Source: Chromatiales bacterium
GTDB taxonomy: Bacteria > Pseudomonadota > Gammaproteobacteria > Steroidobacterales > Woeseiaceae
Direction of reading: 5' to 3'
NCBI GenBank assembly: GCA_004282875.1
Contig: SHLT01000001.1
Span: forward strand, 85,366-149,365
DNA length: 64,000 nt
In this document: positions 22,132 to 29,359 of the stretch, piece after piece
Numbering within the stretch: the stretch's first letter is position 1
How the letters are laid out: each line of letters starts with the position of its first letter
The notes under the pieces: generated by a model
What the model saw: the letters and a program-made list of their open reading frames with translations, nothing else
Told to the model about the DNA's origin: nothing
Database searches by the model: none
Program-made: the position numbers and the translations under genes

Positions 22132-22728
22132 ATGTCGCAGTACCCACAAGCAGCCTTCATTAAGAGCGCCAACGCGCCCTCCCAGTTTGTCCAGGATGAG
22201 GGCGCCGAAGTGGCGTTTGCGGGCCGCTCGAATGCCGGTAAGTCCAGCGCGATCAACGTCATCGTGAACCGTCGCCAGTTTGCCCGCACGAGCAAGACCC
22301 CGGGCCGGACGCAGCTCGTGAACTTCTTTACGCTGGCGGACGGCAAGCGCCTCGTGGACCTGCCGGGCTACGGATTTGCCAAAGTGGCCAGCAGCATGCG
22401 CAACCACTGGGCGGATCTCATGGCCGACTATTTTGAGACCCGCAAGAGCCTCGCCGGCATGTTCCTGATCGTGGATATCCGGCGCCAGCTGACCGACTTC
22501 GACCGCCAGATGCTGGCCTTCGCCGAAGCGGTGGGCTTGCCCACGCACGTGCTGCTGACCAAGGCCGACAAACTGAAACGGGGGCAGGCGGCCAAAGCGC
22601 TGCTCGAGGTCCGTCGGGATCTCGGCGAGGTGGCGACGGTGCAGCACTTTTCGGCGCTGACGCGGCAGGGAGAGGGGGAAGCCCGGGCGAAGCTCGAGGA
22701 ATTCCTTGCCCAGGATCGCGAGCAATAA
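22132..22728 (+). CDS. engB: Ribosome biogenesis GTPase YihA/EngB
   Basis: GRSNAGKSSAINVI, TPGRTQLVNFF, VDLPGYGFAKV, TKADKLKRGQ. Confidence 0.96.
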   Translation: MSQYPQAAFIKSANAPSQFVQDEGAEVAFAGRSNAGKSSAINVIVNRRQFARTSKTPGRTQLVNFFTLADGKRLVDLPGYGFAKVASSMRNHWADLMADYFETRKSLAGMFLIVDIRRQLTDFDRQMLAFAEAVGLPTHVLLTKADKLKRGQAAKALLEVRRDLGEVATVQHFSALTRQGEGEARAKLEEFLAQDREQ

Positions 22729-22759
22729 AAAGCCCCGAAGCACGTCCGTGCCCCGGGGC
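22727..22759 (-). terminator. Rho-independent terminator of the candidate sRNA
   Basis: Minus strand GCCCCG-GG-GCAC-GGAC-GTGC-TT-CGGGGC followed by TTTTT; the T tract abuts or overlaps the engB stop codon. Confidence 0.85.
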
Positions 22760-22840
22760 CGAAGAAGCAACAGGCTTGGGGTTACCTTGTTGCACGCCTG
22801 CTTAGGGAGGTAAACAGGCGAGTGACTTACGCACTCAGAA
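22727..22840 (-). ncRNA. Candidate structured small RNA at the Spot 42/ErsA position (between polA and engB)
   Basis: On the minus strand, four successive hairpins: GAGTG/CACTC, GCCTG/CAGGC, GCAACA/TGTTGC, then GCCCCG/CGGGGC with a T tract. No convincing ORF. The 5' end is approximate. Confidence 0.6.
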
Positions 22841-23064
22841 TAATTAGAGCGTCGCGTTTCAGCAGAGTTCCCCAATCGCCGTAACATCATGATTTTCAGC
22901 GGAATTTAGTTTGGAGTGATTCTAATCCACCTGTTGTGTGGGCACCGATAACACCCGTGATTCCCGTCTCTTGTCCTAGTGTGACGCACTCGTCGCAATT
23001 TTCAGGATGCCCAACGTAGTATGGCGATTCCTGAAGAATGGCATAACGACAAGAAAGGTCTTCA

Positions 23065-26000
23065 ATGTCCAAGTCCAAGATAGTCCGATTCGGAATCCTG
23101 TTGTTCGTGCTGGGCGGGCTGGTCGTCTTCAAGCTTACCTACGAGCCGCCCTACGATGCGCAGGACGAGCCGTACGACGTCATCTACGGGGAAATGGCTG
23201 GGAACGGACGCCCGAATACTGAACGCAAGCCCCTCGAACCTGCGCAGGTGCACGGGGTTGGCAGGGACCGTTGGAAGGCTCCGCCATCCGCCTGGTTGCA
23301 AAACGAACGGGCTCTGGCCGAGACGACACTTGCACGATCGGATATCGATCTCCTGATTCTGCCACTTCAGGGCGACAAGAACGCATTCGATCCTATTGAG
23401 CGTGCTTTGATAACGCGGCTTGTCAGTCAGAGTGTCGCAGCAAGCGAGCGCTTTGCAGTCGCCAACCCGACAGCCGTCATGCGCTACCTGGGCATGAATC
23501 GAACGCAGTACCCAAGCAAGGAAGTGAACGATCTCGCGCGGCTGGCGCGGGCGAAACGTGTTCTGATCATGGAGTCTGAACACGACCGGCAAGGCCATTG
23601 GTATCTGAGCGCGAACCTGTACGACCCGAGCGTCAACGAAAACACGGCGACGAAGGTGTGGACCAAGCTCGAGTATTCAGCGGAGCGCCCGCCGGTGTTT
23701 GCGCTGGCAGAAATCCTTGATGAAGTGGCGGAGTTTGCGAGTGGTAGAGGATCACGAATAACGGCACGCCGCGCTCGCTTCGACCCCGCCGAATTTCAGT
23801 TTCCGGTGTCTGTCGAGAAGGCCAGAGAGCAATCGCGTATGTCTTCTATCCATGCGGCAGCCCACTTGCAGCTCTTAGCCATGTTGCATCCCGCAGGCGA
23901 ATACAACGATGCGCGGCTCCAGTTGCTCGAGCGATCGTTTGTCGAGTTGGCTAAAGCATCCCCAACTTCTGCCTATCACCGGTATTTCAAGGCACGTGCG
24001 CTGGCTTACCTTGGCCGAAGAAAAGCGGCGGTCAACATGCTCACTGAGCCGCGGAACCGGCATGAGGCAGCTCTTCTTGATGCCCTGAACGGCAATCTCC
24101 CAGCGTTGAGAGATTACGTAGTGGACTCCGGGACAACCCCGTTGGACTTCATGGTGTTGAAGGATATGCAATTTGTTGAGTCGCGGTATTGGGACAGGCT
24201 GGATCGTGATTACGTGGAGCAGTTCGCAATCGACAATCTGCCCTGGGCGCCGATAATCTACCGCTCTCTTATGGAATATGAAGGATGGGGGAGCCCCACC
24301 ACCGCGTATATCAAGGTCGGTCTGGAGGAGCTCGCTCCCGTTGATGGCGACTCACTCGAGGCATACATCGATGGTCAGACCGTTATTGGGAAATACCCGG
24401 ATGAGCTGGACCTACTACGTCAATTGTGGCGCCACATTGACGCAATCCAGACGCCGGAGCAATTGCAGAGCCTGAGAGAAGTCGAAAATCACACGACCGT
24501 CACCGCAGTTGACGTTGCTGAGATTGCAAAGGCGATCGCCGTCTCTGATCACATACGAGAAATACACGAGGATCTTACAAGGCGTGGGCTTCCCGAGTCC
24601 GCACTGCGGACGATCGCCGAGTTCGAGCCCATCTTCTCTGGGCATCCGGAAGTCACTCTGATGATGGCGGAGGCGCTTCGACAGCAGGCACAGGATGTCC
24701 AGGGTGCAGAGATGCAAACTCTGACACGAAAATACCTTGAAGCCAGACTGAATGGTTTCTCCTGGTCGACAAACCTGTCGCCCAGAGCGATCGATGTGGC
24801 TCGTCGGTATTCAAATGCGCTCTCGAGAGTATCCCCAACTTCCATCCAAGGCTATTCGAGGACAGCGTTTGCGGGATATTCGCGCCGATACTTTGAATGG
24901 CCCAGAGGAGAGGGCTGGTTTCACGAGGTTGTTCCCCGGGAAATCCAAAGCGGTGCTCTGGACGAGTGCCTGGATGTCACGTGGACCAGCTTCTGGTGCC
25001 TGGGAGCGAAGATCGAAGAGGAAGCCAAGTCCGGCGGTGAGCCACAAGAGATTCGTGACGAGTTGCTTGCCGAACATTCCGACCGGTTTATTGGAAATCC
25101 ACGGCGAGCTGAGTTCAACGTCATGTTTGCAAGGAAGTTTGGCGACGGTGACGTTGACCTCCGAGTTCTTCAGGAGCAGGTGGACGCCGGGTCTCCATCC
25201 TGGAATATTTATGAAGCGCTCGGCCGTATCTACAAACGTCGAGGAGACTACGTAGCAGCACAGCAAACATGGTTGTCCTATCCGGACTTCAATACCGGCG
25301 ATGGGCGAGTTTCTGTCGGTGACTCCCAGAACGCAGACTTTGCTGCGTCACAGTTCTTCTGGATTGGGCAACATGAACTCGCTCTGCCTCTTCTTTACAT
25401 AGCCGCGGAAAGCGGTACCGGCTCCAGCGGGAGCATGGCCTCCGCGCAACGGTTGGCGCTTATCGCCGGCGACCTGGAACTGGCCAGGGGATGGGCCGCG
25501 GAGCGCGTTCGCAGGTACCAGAGCAAACATGGCGCTCGAGATCTAATGGAACTACTTCACGTTACAGGGGAGTCGACTCGCGCATGGACCCTCTTCGAAC
25601 AGATGCATGTGTCATGGCGAGAGCCGGAGATTTGGTCGAGCGCATTGGTAGGGCATCGACTGGAGTCGGCTAGCACCGGGTCGATCGCCGAGTGGATTGC
25701 CGAGTCCACGTTCCTAGACGATTCCGACTCCGGAGCTCGAAGGTCCGGGGGCGCAATGGATTTGGCACCACGCTATCTGTTACTGGCGGGACAGATGGAC
25801 AGGACTCCCAGCCCTGATTTCCCGGCATTGGTATCTGACGCCTACTCGCGGCCAGGGTCTCAAAGGCGACCGCAGAACGATCCGAAGTTCGTGGCCGGCA
25901 ACCCCGATCTCGAAAAAGCGAAGGCTGCCTACGCGGACACAGGATTCGAACACGTCTACCCGAGGCTCGCAGCTGCAATGTCAGCATTCCTGAATGGTGA

Positions 26001-26640
26001 CTACGAACGTGCCCACAATGCGTTTCTTAATGCTGCTTCTTACAGGGACCTGGGTGAATACACGTCATACTACGCAATCAGTGCTGCAGAGTTGGGGCGC
26101 GAAGAGCATGTGGCGGCAGCGCTCGGTGTCAGGTTCTCAGAGTATCAAGAGCGGCTTAGAAATGAGCGAGTCGGAGGCGAAGGTCTCGGGGAGTTTTTTG
26201 ACGACTATCTGGCATTCGCTGTGCTCGCAGCGTTCGACGGGCAGCACGACGAGGCGCTTCGCTACTTGAAGCTTGCGCTAAATGATCGCCCGTTCCTCGG
26301 GCGCCGCACGATCTACCCGATGTACCAGTTGGTTGACGTGGCTGACAGGCTGTTTGAAGAGACAGGGGCCCAGGAGTATAGAGAGTTCGCGTTCGACCTC
26401 AGCCGCCGACATACGGTTATTTTGCCAATGCATGGCTGGGCCTATTTCGTCGTGGCCAAATACAGCGAAGTGCATGTAGAGCGAATCAAGGCCGCAGCAT
26501 CCGGGTTGCACCTGGATCCGTTATCAGAACGCGGTAGCAAGTTGCCGAGAGACGTTCTGGACGATGCGAGAGAATTACTCGATAGATCCGGTCCGCCGTT
26601 TCTGCGACGCGCAGAAACAGGACTGCCCCAGTCGACTTGA
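23065..26640 (+). CDS. Large membrane-anchored protein: N-terminal TM helix, possible TolB/FlgO-like domain, TPR-like solenoid (1191 aa)
   Basis: TM helix IVRFGILLFVLGGLVVFKL; ILPLQGDKNAFDPIERALITRLVSQSVAASERFAVANPTAVMRYLG...LARAKRVLIMESE-YLSANLYD resembles TolB-like domains; helical-repeat C-terminal region. Function not recognised. Confidence 0.75.
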   Translation: MSKSKIVRFGILLFVLGGLVVFKLTYEPPYDAQDEPYDVIYGEMAGNGRPNTERKPLEPAQVHGVGRDRWKAPPSAWLQNERALAETTLARSDIDLLILPLQGDKNAFDPIERALITRLVSQSVAASERFAVANPTAVMRYLGMNRTQYPSKEVNDLARLARAKRVLIMESEHDRQGHWYLSANLYDPSVNENTATKVWTKLEYSAERPPVFALAEILDEVAEFASGRGSRITARRARFDPAEFQFPVSVEKAREQSRMSSIHAAAHLQLLAMLHPAGEYNDARLQLLERSFVELAKASPTSAYHRYFKARALAYLGRRKAAVNMLTEPRNRHEAALLDALNGNLPALRDYVVDSGTTPLDFMVLKDMQFVESRYWDRLDRDYVEQFAIDNLPWAPIIYRSLMEYEGWGSPTTAYIKVGLEELAPVDGDSLEAYIDGQTVIGKYPDELDLLRQLWRHIDAIQTPEQLQSLREVENHTTVTAVDVAEIAKAIAVSDHIREIHEDLTRRGLPESALRTIAEFEPIFSGHPEVTLMMAEALRQQAQDVQGAEMQTLTRKYLEARLNGFSWSTNLSPRAIDVARRYSNALSRVSPTSIQGYSRTAFAGYSRRYFEWPRGEGWFHEVVPREIQSGALDECLDVTWTSFWCLGAKIEEEAKSGGEPQEIRDELLAEHSDRFIGNPRRAEFNVMFARKFGDGDVDLRVLQEQVDAGSPSWNIYEALGRIYKRRGDYVAAQQTWLSYPDFNTGDGRVSVGDSQNADFAASQFFWIGQHELALPLLYIAAESGTGSSGSMASAQRLALIAGDLELARGWAAERVRRYQSKHGARDLMELLHVTGESTRAWTLFEQMHVSWREPEIWSSALVGHRLESASTGSIAEWIAESTFLDDSDSGARRSGGAMDLAPRYLLLAGQMDRTPSPDFPALVSDAYSRPGSQRRPQNDPKFVAGNPDLEKAKAAYADTGFEHVYPRLAAAMSAFLNGDYERAHNAFLNAASYRDLGEYTSYYAISAAELGREEHVAAALGVRFSEYQERLRNERVGGEGLGEFFDDYLAFAVLAAFDGQHDEALRYLKLALNDRPFLGRRTIYPMYQLVDVADRLFEETGAQEYREFAFDLSRRHTVILPMHGWAYFVVAKYSEVHVERIKAAASGLHLDPLSERGSKLPRDVLDDARELLDRSGPPFLRRAETGLPQST

Positions 26641-26656: not shown

Positions 26657-29359
26657 CTAGTGCGCCTCGTCCCAGTTGTCGCCGACGCCGACATCGACTT
26701 TTAGTGGTGCTGCCAGTTTCGCCGCGCCATTCATGAGTTCGGTAACTTTGGCAGACACGGCATCGACTTCGGCGTTCTTCACCTCGAAGACGAGTTCATC
26801 GTGGACCTGCATGATCATGCGGGCCCCGGGCTGCTCTTCCTGCAGCCATCCATGGACCGTGATCATGGCCCGCTTGATGATGTCCGCCGCGGTTCCCTGC
26901 ATCGGCGCGTTGATGGCGCTGCGCTCCGCGTACTGGCGGCGCTGTGCGTTGCGCGCATTGATTTCGGGCAGGTACAACCGTCGCCCGAATACTGTTTCGA
27001 CAAAGCCCTTTTCGCTGGCCGTGGTCCGAATGTCATCCATGTACTTCTTGACCCCCGGATAGCGCTCGAAATAGAGGTCCGTGTACTCCTGGGCTTCGCC
27101 GCGGCTGATGCCGAGCTGCTTGGCGAGGCCAAACGCCGACATGCCGTACATCAGGCCGAAGTTGATGGCCTTGGCCGAGCGGCGCTGGTCGTCGGTGACG
27201 TCCTCGAGCGCCACTTCGAAAACTTCGGCTGCCGTTGCGCGATGGACGTCCAGCTCTTTTTCGAACGCCTTGAGCAGACCCTTGTCCGCTGACAGGTGCG
27301 CCATGATGCGCAGTTCGATCTGCGAGTAGTCGGCGGCGAGCAGGATGTGGCCCTTGGGCGCAACGAAAGCCTGGCGTATGCGCCGACCTTCCTCGGTGCG
27401 AATCGGGATGTTCTGCAGGTTGGGATCAGTTGACGACAGGCGTCCTGTTGCAGCGACGGCCTGGTGGTAGGACGTATGGATACGGCCCGTACGCTCATTG
27501 ATCTGCAGCGGCAGCTTGTCCGTATAGGTGCTCTTCAGTTTGCTCACGCTGCGGTAGTCGATAATGACCGCGGGCAGCTCGTAGTCGTTCGCCAGTTCGA
27601 CCAGGACATCTTCCGCGGTGGAAGGCTGGCCCTTCGGTGTCTTGCGGATTACAGGCAGCTCCTGCTGCTCGAACAGGATCTGCTGAAGCTGCTTCGGTGA
27701 TCCGAGGTTGAACGGTCCGCCGGCGAGTTCGTGTGCTTTCGCCTCGAGCTTCGCCATCTTTTTGGCGAGCTCGCCGCTTTGCTTCTGCAGCATCTTGCGG
27801 TCAACGAGTACCCCGGTTTCTTCCATGTCGAGGAGGACGGGAACCAGCGGCTGCTCGATCTCTTCGTAGACTTTCTTCAAGGGCGGTTCGTCGCCGAGCT
27901 GCTGCCACAGGGTCTCGTGCAGCTGCAGCGTGATGTCGGCGTCTTCGGCGGCGTAGGGCGCGGCCGTCTCGAGGTCGATCTGGTTAAAAGTCAGCTGCTT
28001 GGCGCCCTTGCCCGCGACGTCTTCGTAATGAATGGTTTCCTTGCCAAGGTACTGGCGCGCTACCGAGTCCATATCGTGGCGCGTCGCGACGCTGTTGAGC
28101 ACATACGATTCGAGCATCGAATCGTATGCCATGCCGGCCAGCGCTATGTCATAGCGCGCGAGGATGTGTGCGTCGTACTTGAGGTGGTGCCCGACCTTCT
28201 TCCTGGCGCTGCTCTCCAGCCAGGGCTTGAGCTTCGCGAGCACCTCGTCACGCGGCAGCTGGTCGGGCGCACCCGGGTAGTCATGCGCAACGGGCACGTA
28301 GCAGGCTTCGCCAGGTTTCGTGGTCATGGAGAGGCCGACGATCTCGGCATTCATGTAGTCGAGACTATTGGTTTCCGTGTCGAACGCGGTCAGTTTCGCC
28401 TTGTTGAGCTTCTTCAGCCAGGCGTCGAAGGCCTTCCACGTCAGCACCGTTTCATAGTCTGCAGGATCGTCTTCGACAGGTGCATCGACAGGCTGTTCGC
28501 CTGCGGCGACGCCCGCCTCATTGAGCTGCCGCAGTAACGAGCGCAGCTCGTAGTGGCTGTAAAGCTCACGCAACGTGTCGGTATCGCCGTCGGTCGCCTT
28601 GAGGTCATCGACACCCACATCGAGATCGACGTCGGTCTTGATCGTCGCGAGTTCACGTGACAGTTCCATTTGCGCCACGTTGTCGCGCAGGCTTTCTCCG
28701 ACCTTGCCCTTGATCTCGTCACCGTGTTCCACGATGCCGTCGGCGCTTTCATACAGATTTAGCCACTTGGCCGCCGTCTTGGGGCCAACCTTCGGCACAC
28801 CTGGAATGTTGTCGGAACTGTCGCCGACCAGCGCGAGGTAGTCGATGATTTGCTCCGGGTAGACGTCGAACTTCGCCTTGACGGCATCGCGATCCAGTCG
28901 CGAATCGTTCATCGTATTGATCAGCGTGACCTTGTCGGTCACGAGCTGTGCCAGGTCCTTGTCGCCCGTTGAGACCAGCACGTTCAGCCCGGCTTTACCC
29001 GCCTCCGCACACAGCGTGCCGATGACGTCGTCCGCCTCCACGCCGCTAACCTGCAACAGCGGCAGGCCCATGGCCCCGACGGCATCGAGGATCGGCTGTA
29101 CCTGGGAGCGCAGATCGTCCGGCATCGGTGGGCGGGTCGCCTTGTACTCGGCGAATAATTCATCGCGGAAGGTCTTGCCGGGCGCGTCGAACACGACGGC
29201 CACGTGGGCCGGCTGTTCTTCGCGCAGCAGTTTGAGGATCATCGTCAATACGCCGTGCAGTGCGCCCGTCGGTTCGCCCTGGGAGTTGGTCAGGGAGGGC
29301 AGCGCGTGAAAGGCGCGATACAAATACGATGACCCGTCGATCAGGACGAGATCAGTCAT
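26657..29359 (-). CDS. polA: DNA polymerase I
   Basis: 5' nuclease domain, 3'-5' exonuclease FDTETNSLDYM, polymerase motifs DYSQIELRIMAH, RRSAKAINFGLMYGMSAFGLA, QVHDELVFEV. Confidence 0.98.
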   Translation of the reverse strand: MTDLVLIDGSSYLYRAFHALPSLTNSQGEPTGALHGVLTMILKLLREEQPAHVAVVFDAPGKTFRDELFAEYKATRPPMPDDLRSQVQPILDAVGAMGLPLLQVSGVEADDVIGTLCAEAGKAGLNVLVSTGDKDLAQLVTDKVTLINTMNDSRLDRDAVKAKFDVYPEQIIDYLALVGDSSDNIPGVPKVGPKTAAKWLNLYESADGIVEHGDEIKGKVGESLRDNVAQMELSRELATIKTDVDLDVGVDDLKATDGDTDTLRELYSHYELRSLLRQLNEAGVAAGEQPVDAPVEDDPADYETVLTWKAFDAWLKKLNKAKLTAFDTETNSLDYMNAEIVGLSMTTKPGEACYVPVAHDYPGAPDQLPRDEVLAKLKPWLESSARKKVGHHLKYDAHILARYDIALAGMAYDSMLESYVLNSVATRHDMDSVARQYLGKETIHYEDVAGKGAKQLTFNQIDLETAAPYAAEDADITLQLHETLWQQLGDEPPLKKVYEEIEQPLVPVLLDMEETGVLVDRKMLQKQSGELAKKMAKLEAKAHELAGGPFNLGSPKQLQQILFEQQELPVIRKTPKGQPSTAEDVLVELANDYELPAVIIDYRSVSKLKSTYTDKLPLQINERTGRIHTSYHQAVAATGRLSSTDPNLQNIPIRTEEGRRIRQAFVAPKGHILLAADYSQIELRIMAHLSADKGLLKAFEKELDVHRATAAEVFEVALEDVTDDQRRSAKAINFGLMYGMSAFGLAKQLGISRGEAQEYTDLYFERYPGVKKYMDDIRTTASEKGFVETVFGRRLYLPEINARNAQRRQYAERSAINAPMQGTAADIIKRAMITVHGWLQEEQPGARMIMQVHDELVFEVKNAEVDAVSAKVTELMNGAAKLAAPLKVDVGVGDNWDEAH

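Follow-up and report, generated by a model that had tools for sequence, protein, structure and literature searches.

The predicted small RNA (sRNA) gene described here belongs to a marine-sediment Woeseiaceae bacterium and has the gene for DNA polymerase I (polA) as a neighbour. Within the 64,000-nt stretch of DNA that was analysed (the window), the gene order is engB(+), sRNA(-), an open reading frame (ORF) of 1191 amino acids(+) and polA(-):

22132..22728, plus strand: engB/yihA, encoding a ribosome-biogenesis GTPase (Pfam MMR_HSR1); convergent with the sRNA gene
22726..22836, minus strand: sRNA gene of about 111 nt, its 5' end inferred near 22836; recognized by fold, conservation, covariation and the match to covariance model R2
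23065-26640, plus strand: 1191-aa ORF between polA and the sRNA gene; its Pfam match, to RecO_C, is sub-threshold only
26657..29359, minus strand: polA, on the same strand as the sRNA; recognized by its ORF and by tblastn matches in relatives

The best EngB relatives of this engB belong to Woeseiaceae. A previous reading of this DNA from its letters alone (the sequence-only reading) had pointed to synteny with E. coli, and the orientation is indeed equivalent to the E. coli order polA(+)-spf(+)-yihA/engB(-), but the 1191-aa ORF separates polA from the sRNA here. In relatives polA lies directly upstream of the sRNA, and in a sister species (G030) the ORF is absent at the same place, the polA stop codon being about 124 nt from the sRNA.

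Fold, conservation and covariation

The RNA is encoded on the minus strand and is composed of three hairpins followed by an intrinsic terminator:

22820..22836, minus strand: hairpin 1, GAGTG/CACTC, at the extreme 5' end of the sRNA
22795..22819, minus strand: hairpin 2, with stem GCCTGTTTA/TAAGCAGGC and loop (A)CCUCCC
22766..22793, minus strand: hairpin 3, GCAAC..GG/CC..GTTGC, with the second C-rich loop UAACCCCAAG
22727..22760, minus strand: intrinsic terminator with a 13-bp stem followed by T5; its end coincides with the engB stop codon

The minimum free energy of 22727-22845 on the minus strand is -55.7 kcal/mol compared with -35.3 +/- 3.5 kcal/mol in shuffled sequences (z = -5.8), and 0 of 200 shuffles folded as well. 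The hairpin 2 loop, with an unpaired probability of about 0.9, is the complement of the Shine-Dalgarno sequence GGGAGG(U). A small conserved ORF within the sRNA was ruled out: by eye, the window sequence is without an ATG, and the indels of relatives are not multiples of three.

Searching by DNA alone, we found a conserved block (about 22720-22850) in 36 of the 37 same-genus genomes, at 74-98% identity; outside its edges identity usually decays. Two alignments were used to assess covariation. Alignment A3, mainly at genus level (39 sequences in the loop counts), was aligned without structure, the structure itself being drawn from the window sequence. Alignment A5 is class-wide (57 sequences in the loop counts) and was fitted to the model structure, so its figures are inflated. 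In A3, 90.9% of cells are paired versus 34-48% when the partners are slid, and 19 of the 35 pairs show change on both sides. The structure-fitted A5 gives two-sided change in 33 of 35 pairs and a covariation score of 0.550 versus 0.04-0.10 with slid partners. Hairpin 1 has 95% of its cells paired in A3 and 96% in the structure-fitted A5, in which all 5 of its pairs changed on both sides. The stem of hairpin 3 covaries, and the positions of the terminator stem vary with compensation, in both alignments. While the surrounding stems vary, the CTCCC of the hairpin 2 loop is kept in every sequence (39/39 in A3, 57/57 in A5); the CCCCA of hairpin 3 is found in 38/39 and 47/57 sequences, respectively.

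Because terminator length varies, the RNAalifold consensus of the first alignment lacked the terminator and contained a false long-range helix; the structure given above was used instead. Hairpin 3 was misaligned by MAFFT when genus and order sequences were mixed, and a model-based alignment replaced that one. The proposal of the sequence-only reading, a gene for a structured sRNA that carries its own terminator, is supported by fold, conservation and covariation: the four hairpins and T5 terminator it had described all lie where it placed them, and the compensatory covariation in relatives that it had named as a test is present in both A3 and A5.

Covariance model R1 was built from A3, and R2 from genus, order and class sequences. 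The sole R2 match within the window is 22725-22836 (97.1 bits). Of the 274 class genomes sampled, 112 contain an R1 match. EngB or PolA lies within about 1.5 kb of 27 of the 30 best class matches (25/28 outside the genus) and near 10 of 20 weaker ones; another three of these have the neighbouring cytochrome c4 gene alone. Because covariance models see no flanking genes, the locus association constitutes independent support.

Other arrangements were seen among the relatives. L153 and L161 carry sRNA copies at the same locus on the engB strand, not the polA strand. Tandem sRNA arrays stand beside polA, with five copies in L261 (2562-3301), downstream of polA, and four in L175 (1500-2251); L170 likewise has a four-copy array. 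Apparent tandem duplicates in the Woeseiaceae genomes L038 and L039 may be assembly artefacts since runs of N interrupt them.

Promoter and stress regulators

Four elements lie upstream of the sRNA:

22843..22848, minus strand: -10 element TCTAAT, with a 17-nt spacer to the -35 element
22866..22871, minus strand: -35 element GGAACT of a sigma-E/AlgU-like promoter; the motif is conserved upstream in relatives
22880..22892, minus strand: conserved box TCA-N5-TTAC, upstream of the -35 element, seen in nearly all genus sequences
22910..22925, minus strand: upstream dyad in degenerate form; relatives have TTTAGAC-N-GTCTAAA

The promoter, GGAACT-N17-TCTAAT, ends 6 nt before hairpin 1 and matches the consensus of the sigma-E/AlgU class. 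Upstream of the sRNA, the strict pattern GAACY-N14-18-TCYNA occurs in 30 of 34 genus and 15 of 20 order sequences (about 0.1-0.2 in shuffles) and a relaxed motif in 23 of 32 class sequences (0.3 in shuffles); these patterns were written after viewing the sequences, so the genus counts describe the motif, not test it, and the order and class sets are the fairer test. The sequence-only reading had been right to suspect an ECF-type promoter here, but the GAAAC-N16-TCTGA it picked out does not correspond to the conserved boxes. Nor is the TAATTAT box that it listed a conserved element; the conserved ones are GGAACT and TCTAAT.

RpoE is encoded in the genome (300 bits), and its gene is followed by RseA_N and MucB_RseB genes, giving the arrangement rpoE-rseA-rseB; hfq is also present (98.8 bits). 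The upstream dyad and the TCA-N5-TTAC box may be bound by another regulator. The dyad TTTAGAC-N-GTCTAAA overlaps the stop codon of polA in some relatives.

Proposed function

We propose, with a probability of roughly three in four, that the locus encodes a single-copy, sigma-E (RpoE/AlgU-type)-dependent sRNA between polA and engB whose C-rich loops repress mRNAs and which is of the same superfamily as anti-hemB, sX13 and ErsA. Computed for this sRNA were its structure, conservation, covariation, locus, promoter motif, the accompanying rpoE-rseA-rseB and hfq genes and its model kinship; transcription, RpoE control, mRNA repression and any need for Hfq are inferences. Upon envelope stress, RpoE would be freed from RseA and, acting at GGAACT-N17-TCTAAT, would produce an RNA of ~111 nt that stops at the gene's own terminator. 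Base pairing of the loops ACCUCCC and AACCCCAA with G-rich sites, Shine-Dalgarno-like or other, close to the start codons of several mRNAs would then repress translation of these mRNAs. In the Xanthomonas sRNA sX13, both C-rich loops and the G-rich mRNA sites are needed for target repression (PMC3771888); by analogy, the RNA is most likely a stress-induced trans-acting translational repressor. ErsA has been reported to be sigma-22-dependent (PMC7565897, PMC8395346).

A search of four genus genomes for strict AGGGAGGT-N3-9-ATG sites returned 19 (7 in the reversed control), none in a shared orthologue, and therefore no conserved target was found. The hfq gene, a candidate target by analogy with sX13, was rejected: the sequence in its 5' region is AAGGAGA instead of GGGAGG.

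The lack of a conserved strict target in these four genomes and the shortness of the loops (6-8 nt) would also fit the same RNA and promoter with C-rich loops acting mainly as a sponge or protein-binding decoy instead of pairing with mRNA. We regard this as unlikely given that sX13, with similar loops, depends on the loops and the mRNA sites together (PMC3771888), and that CsrA/RsmA decoys require GGA in their loops, which is absent from these.

Very unlikely, in our judgement, is a role in cis, in which the element would be a 3'-end terminator of engB/polA or exert antisense control of engB. Both the convergence of the RNA with engB and the position of the terminator's end, on the engB stop codon, would fit this, but termination needs neither three hairpins with constrained loops nor a conserved promoter, and the engB strand is without a T-run. 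Moreover, some relatives of the RNA sit elsewhere, lie on the engB strand (L153, L161) or form tandem arrays of 4-5 copies.

Kinship to named RNA families

For the trans-acting, sigma-E-dependent sRNA that we favour, an Rfam scan of the window at gathering thresholds gave no match. Rfam holds ErsA, sX13 and anti-hemB as separate families with no clan. The reference loci of all three are in neither R1 nor R2. Rfam models had found or ranked some A5 members (for example L189, L190, L196, L198, L202 and L203 by RF01719; L043-L061 by RF02837), which leaves R2 partly dependent on those models; R1 includes five rows found by RF02837.

By score, the closest Rfam family to the window RNA is anti-hemB (RF02837; Burkholderia ncS04), followed by sX13 (RF02232), neither of which the sequence-only reading had named. 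The anti-hemB model scores the window RNA at 34.4 bits (E 1.9e-6), below its gathering threshold of 49.5, and R2 in turn scores L206, an RF02837 locus (65.7 bits), at 39.2 bits (E 9e-7). This reciprocal model search supports common descent. Like anti-hemB, the window RNA has a hairpin with a CCUCCC loop, then another hairpin and a CCCCG terminator; unlike it, the Burkholderiales-type locus L206 is not by engB or polA within 1.5 kb and is without the sigma-E motif. Matches to RF02837 occur in 101 of 147 order genomes, the best 20 all adjoining engB and/or polA. Its cut-off is exceeded in 6 of the 147, at the polA/engB locus, L048 of the same family among them; one relative from the same family, also at this locus, scores 50.3 bits (gathering 49.5).

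The sX13 model (Xanthomonadaceae) gives the window RNA 23.8 bits, below the gathering threshold of 50, while two sX13 loci score 45.6 and 42.3 bits with R2. In other class genomes, sub-threshold matches of the sX13 model often coincide with R1 matches. Both RNAs lie at the polA locus and have hairpins with C-rich loops; sX13 differs in that the two loci examined lack the sigma-E motif and in its reported independence of Hfq (PMC3771888).

ErsA is far diverged from the window RNA in sequence, and its model (ErsA / Pseudomon-1, RF01719; gathering 50 bits) has no match on the window RNA up to E = 5. At the ErsA locus, R2 gives a modest match of 28.7 bits (E 1.4e-4) and R1 one of 15.6 bits (E 0.015), at the correct place and on the correct strand; sub-threshold RF01719 matches in class genomes fall largely on R1 matches. 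As at the ErsA locus (L186), the window RNA is downstream of polA on the same strand, though an extra ORF intervenes here, and its predicted sigma-E/AlgU-type promoter has the same layout as that of the Pseudomonas-type locus (GAACTT-N-GTCATA). ErsA represses its targets with help from Hfq, and hfq is present in this genome. Because R2 is partly Rfam-recruited and R1 has five RF02837-found rows, we consider the ErsA link no more than probable. The promoter type is not universal since the examined sX13 and Burkholderia-type anti-hemB loci lack it.

The sequence-only reading had assigned the RNA to a diverged Spot 42/ErsA class, of which kinship to ErsA is supported as probable and kinship to Spot 42 is not supported. 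We give least credence to a diverged Spot 42, that is, a CRP-controlled, Hfq-dependent regulator of carbon metabolism that stayed beside polA: gene order and orientation are those of E. coli polA-spf-yihA and a review describes ErsA as functionally orthologous to Spot 42 (PMC8395346), but the Spot 42 model RF00021 has no match in the whole genome, R2 gives E. coli spf 15.9 bits (E = 0.07) and R1 a partial 17.4, the promoter looks sigma-E-like and there is constraint on both C-rich loops. On account of the RF00021 and R2 results, the link to Spot 42 is one of gene position, the shared polA-sRNA-engB order and orientation; common descent may be too old for detection.

Returning to the sigma-E-dependent repressor, we think it likely that a single ancestral sRNA gene next to polA/engB, its loops C-rich and complementary to the Shine-Dalgarno sequence and its promoter often of sigma-E type, underlies these RNAs across much of Gammaproteobacteria (in the GTDB sense), ErsA, sX13 and anti-hemB being lineage branches and the window RNA the Woeseiaceae branch. 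The question of whether the polA locus elsewhere also encodes sRNAs with C-rich loops was raised in 2013 by the authors of the sX13 study (PMC3771888). For many families of the class the answer given here is yes, and three sRNAs studied apart in Pseudomonas, Xanthomonas and Burkholderia seem to form a single family. In the literature searched, whose scope excluded most subscription journals, we found no paper naming ErsA together with sX13 or anti-hemB, nor any that traces the three Rfam entries to one family sharing a locus and often also a promoter class, although this may be noted elsewhere. If the kinship is true, results on regulation and targets would be transferable among these organisms, and the sigma-E link would be a simple test in many of them.

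The alphaproteobacterial RNA ar14 (RF02344), which has C-rich loops, was undetected on the window RNA. Sub-threshold ar14 matches (38-40 bits) fall at the same places as the sRNA on some relatives (L175, L178 and L174), and on L174 Atu_C7 matches there too, hinting at a still wider family.
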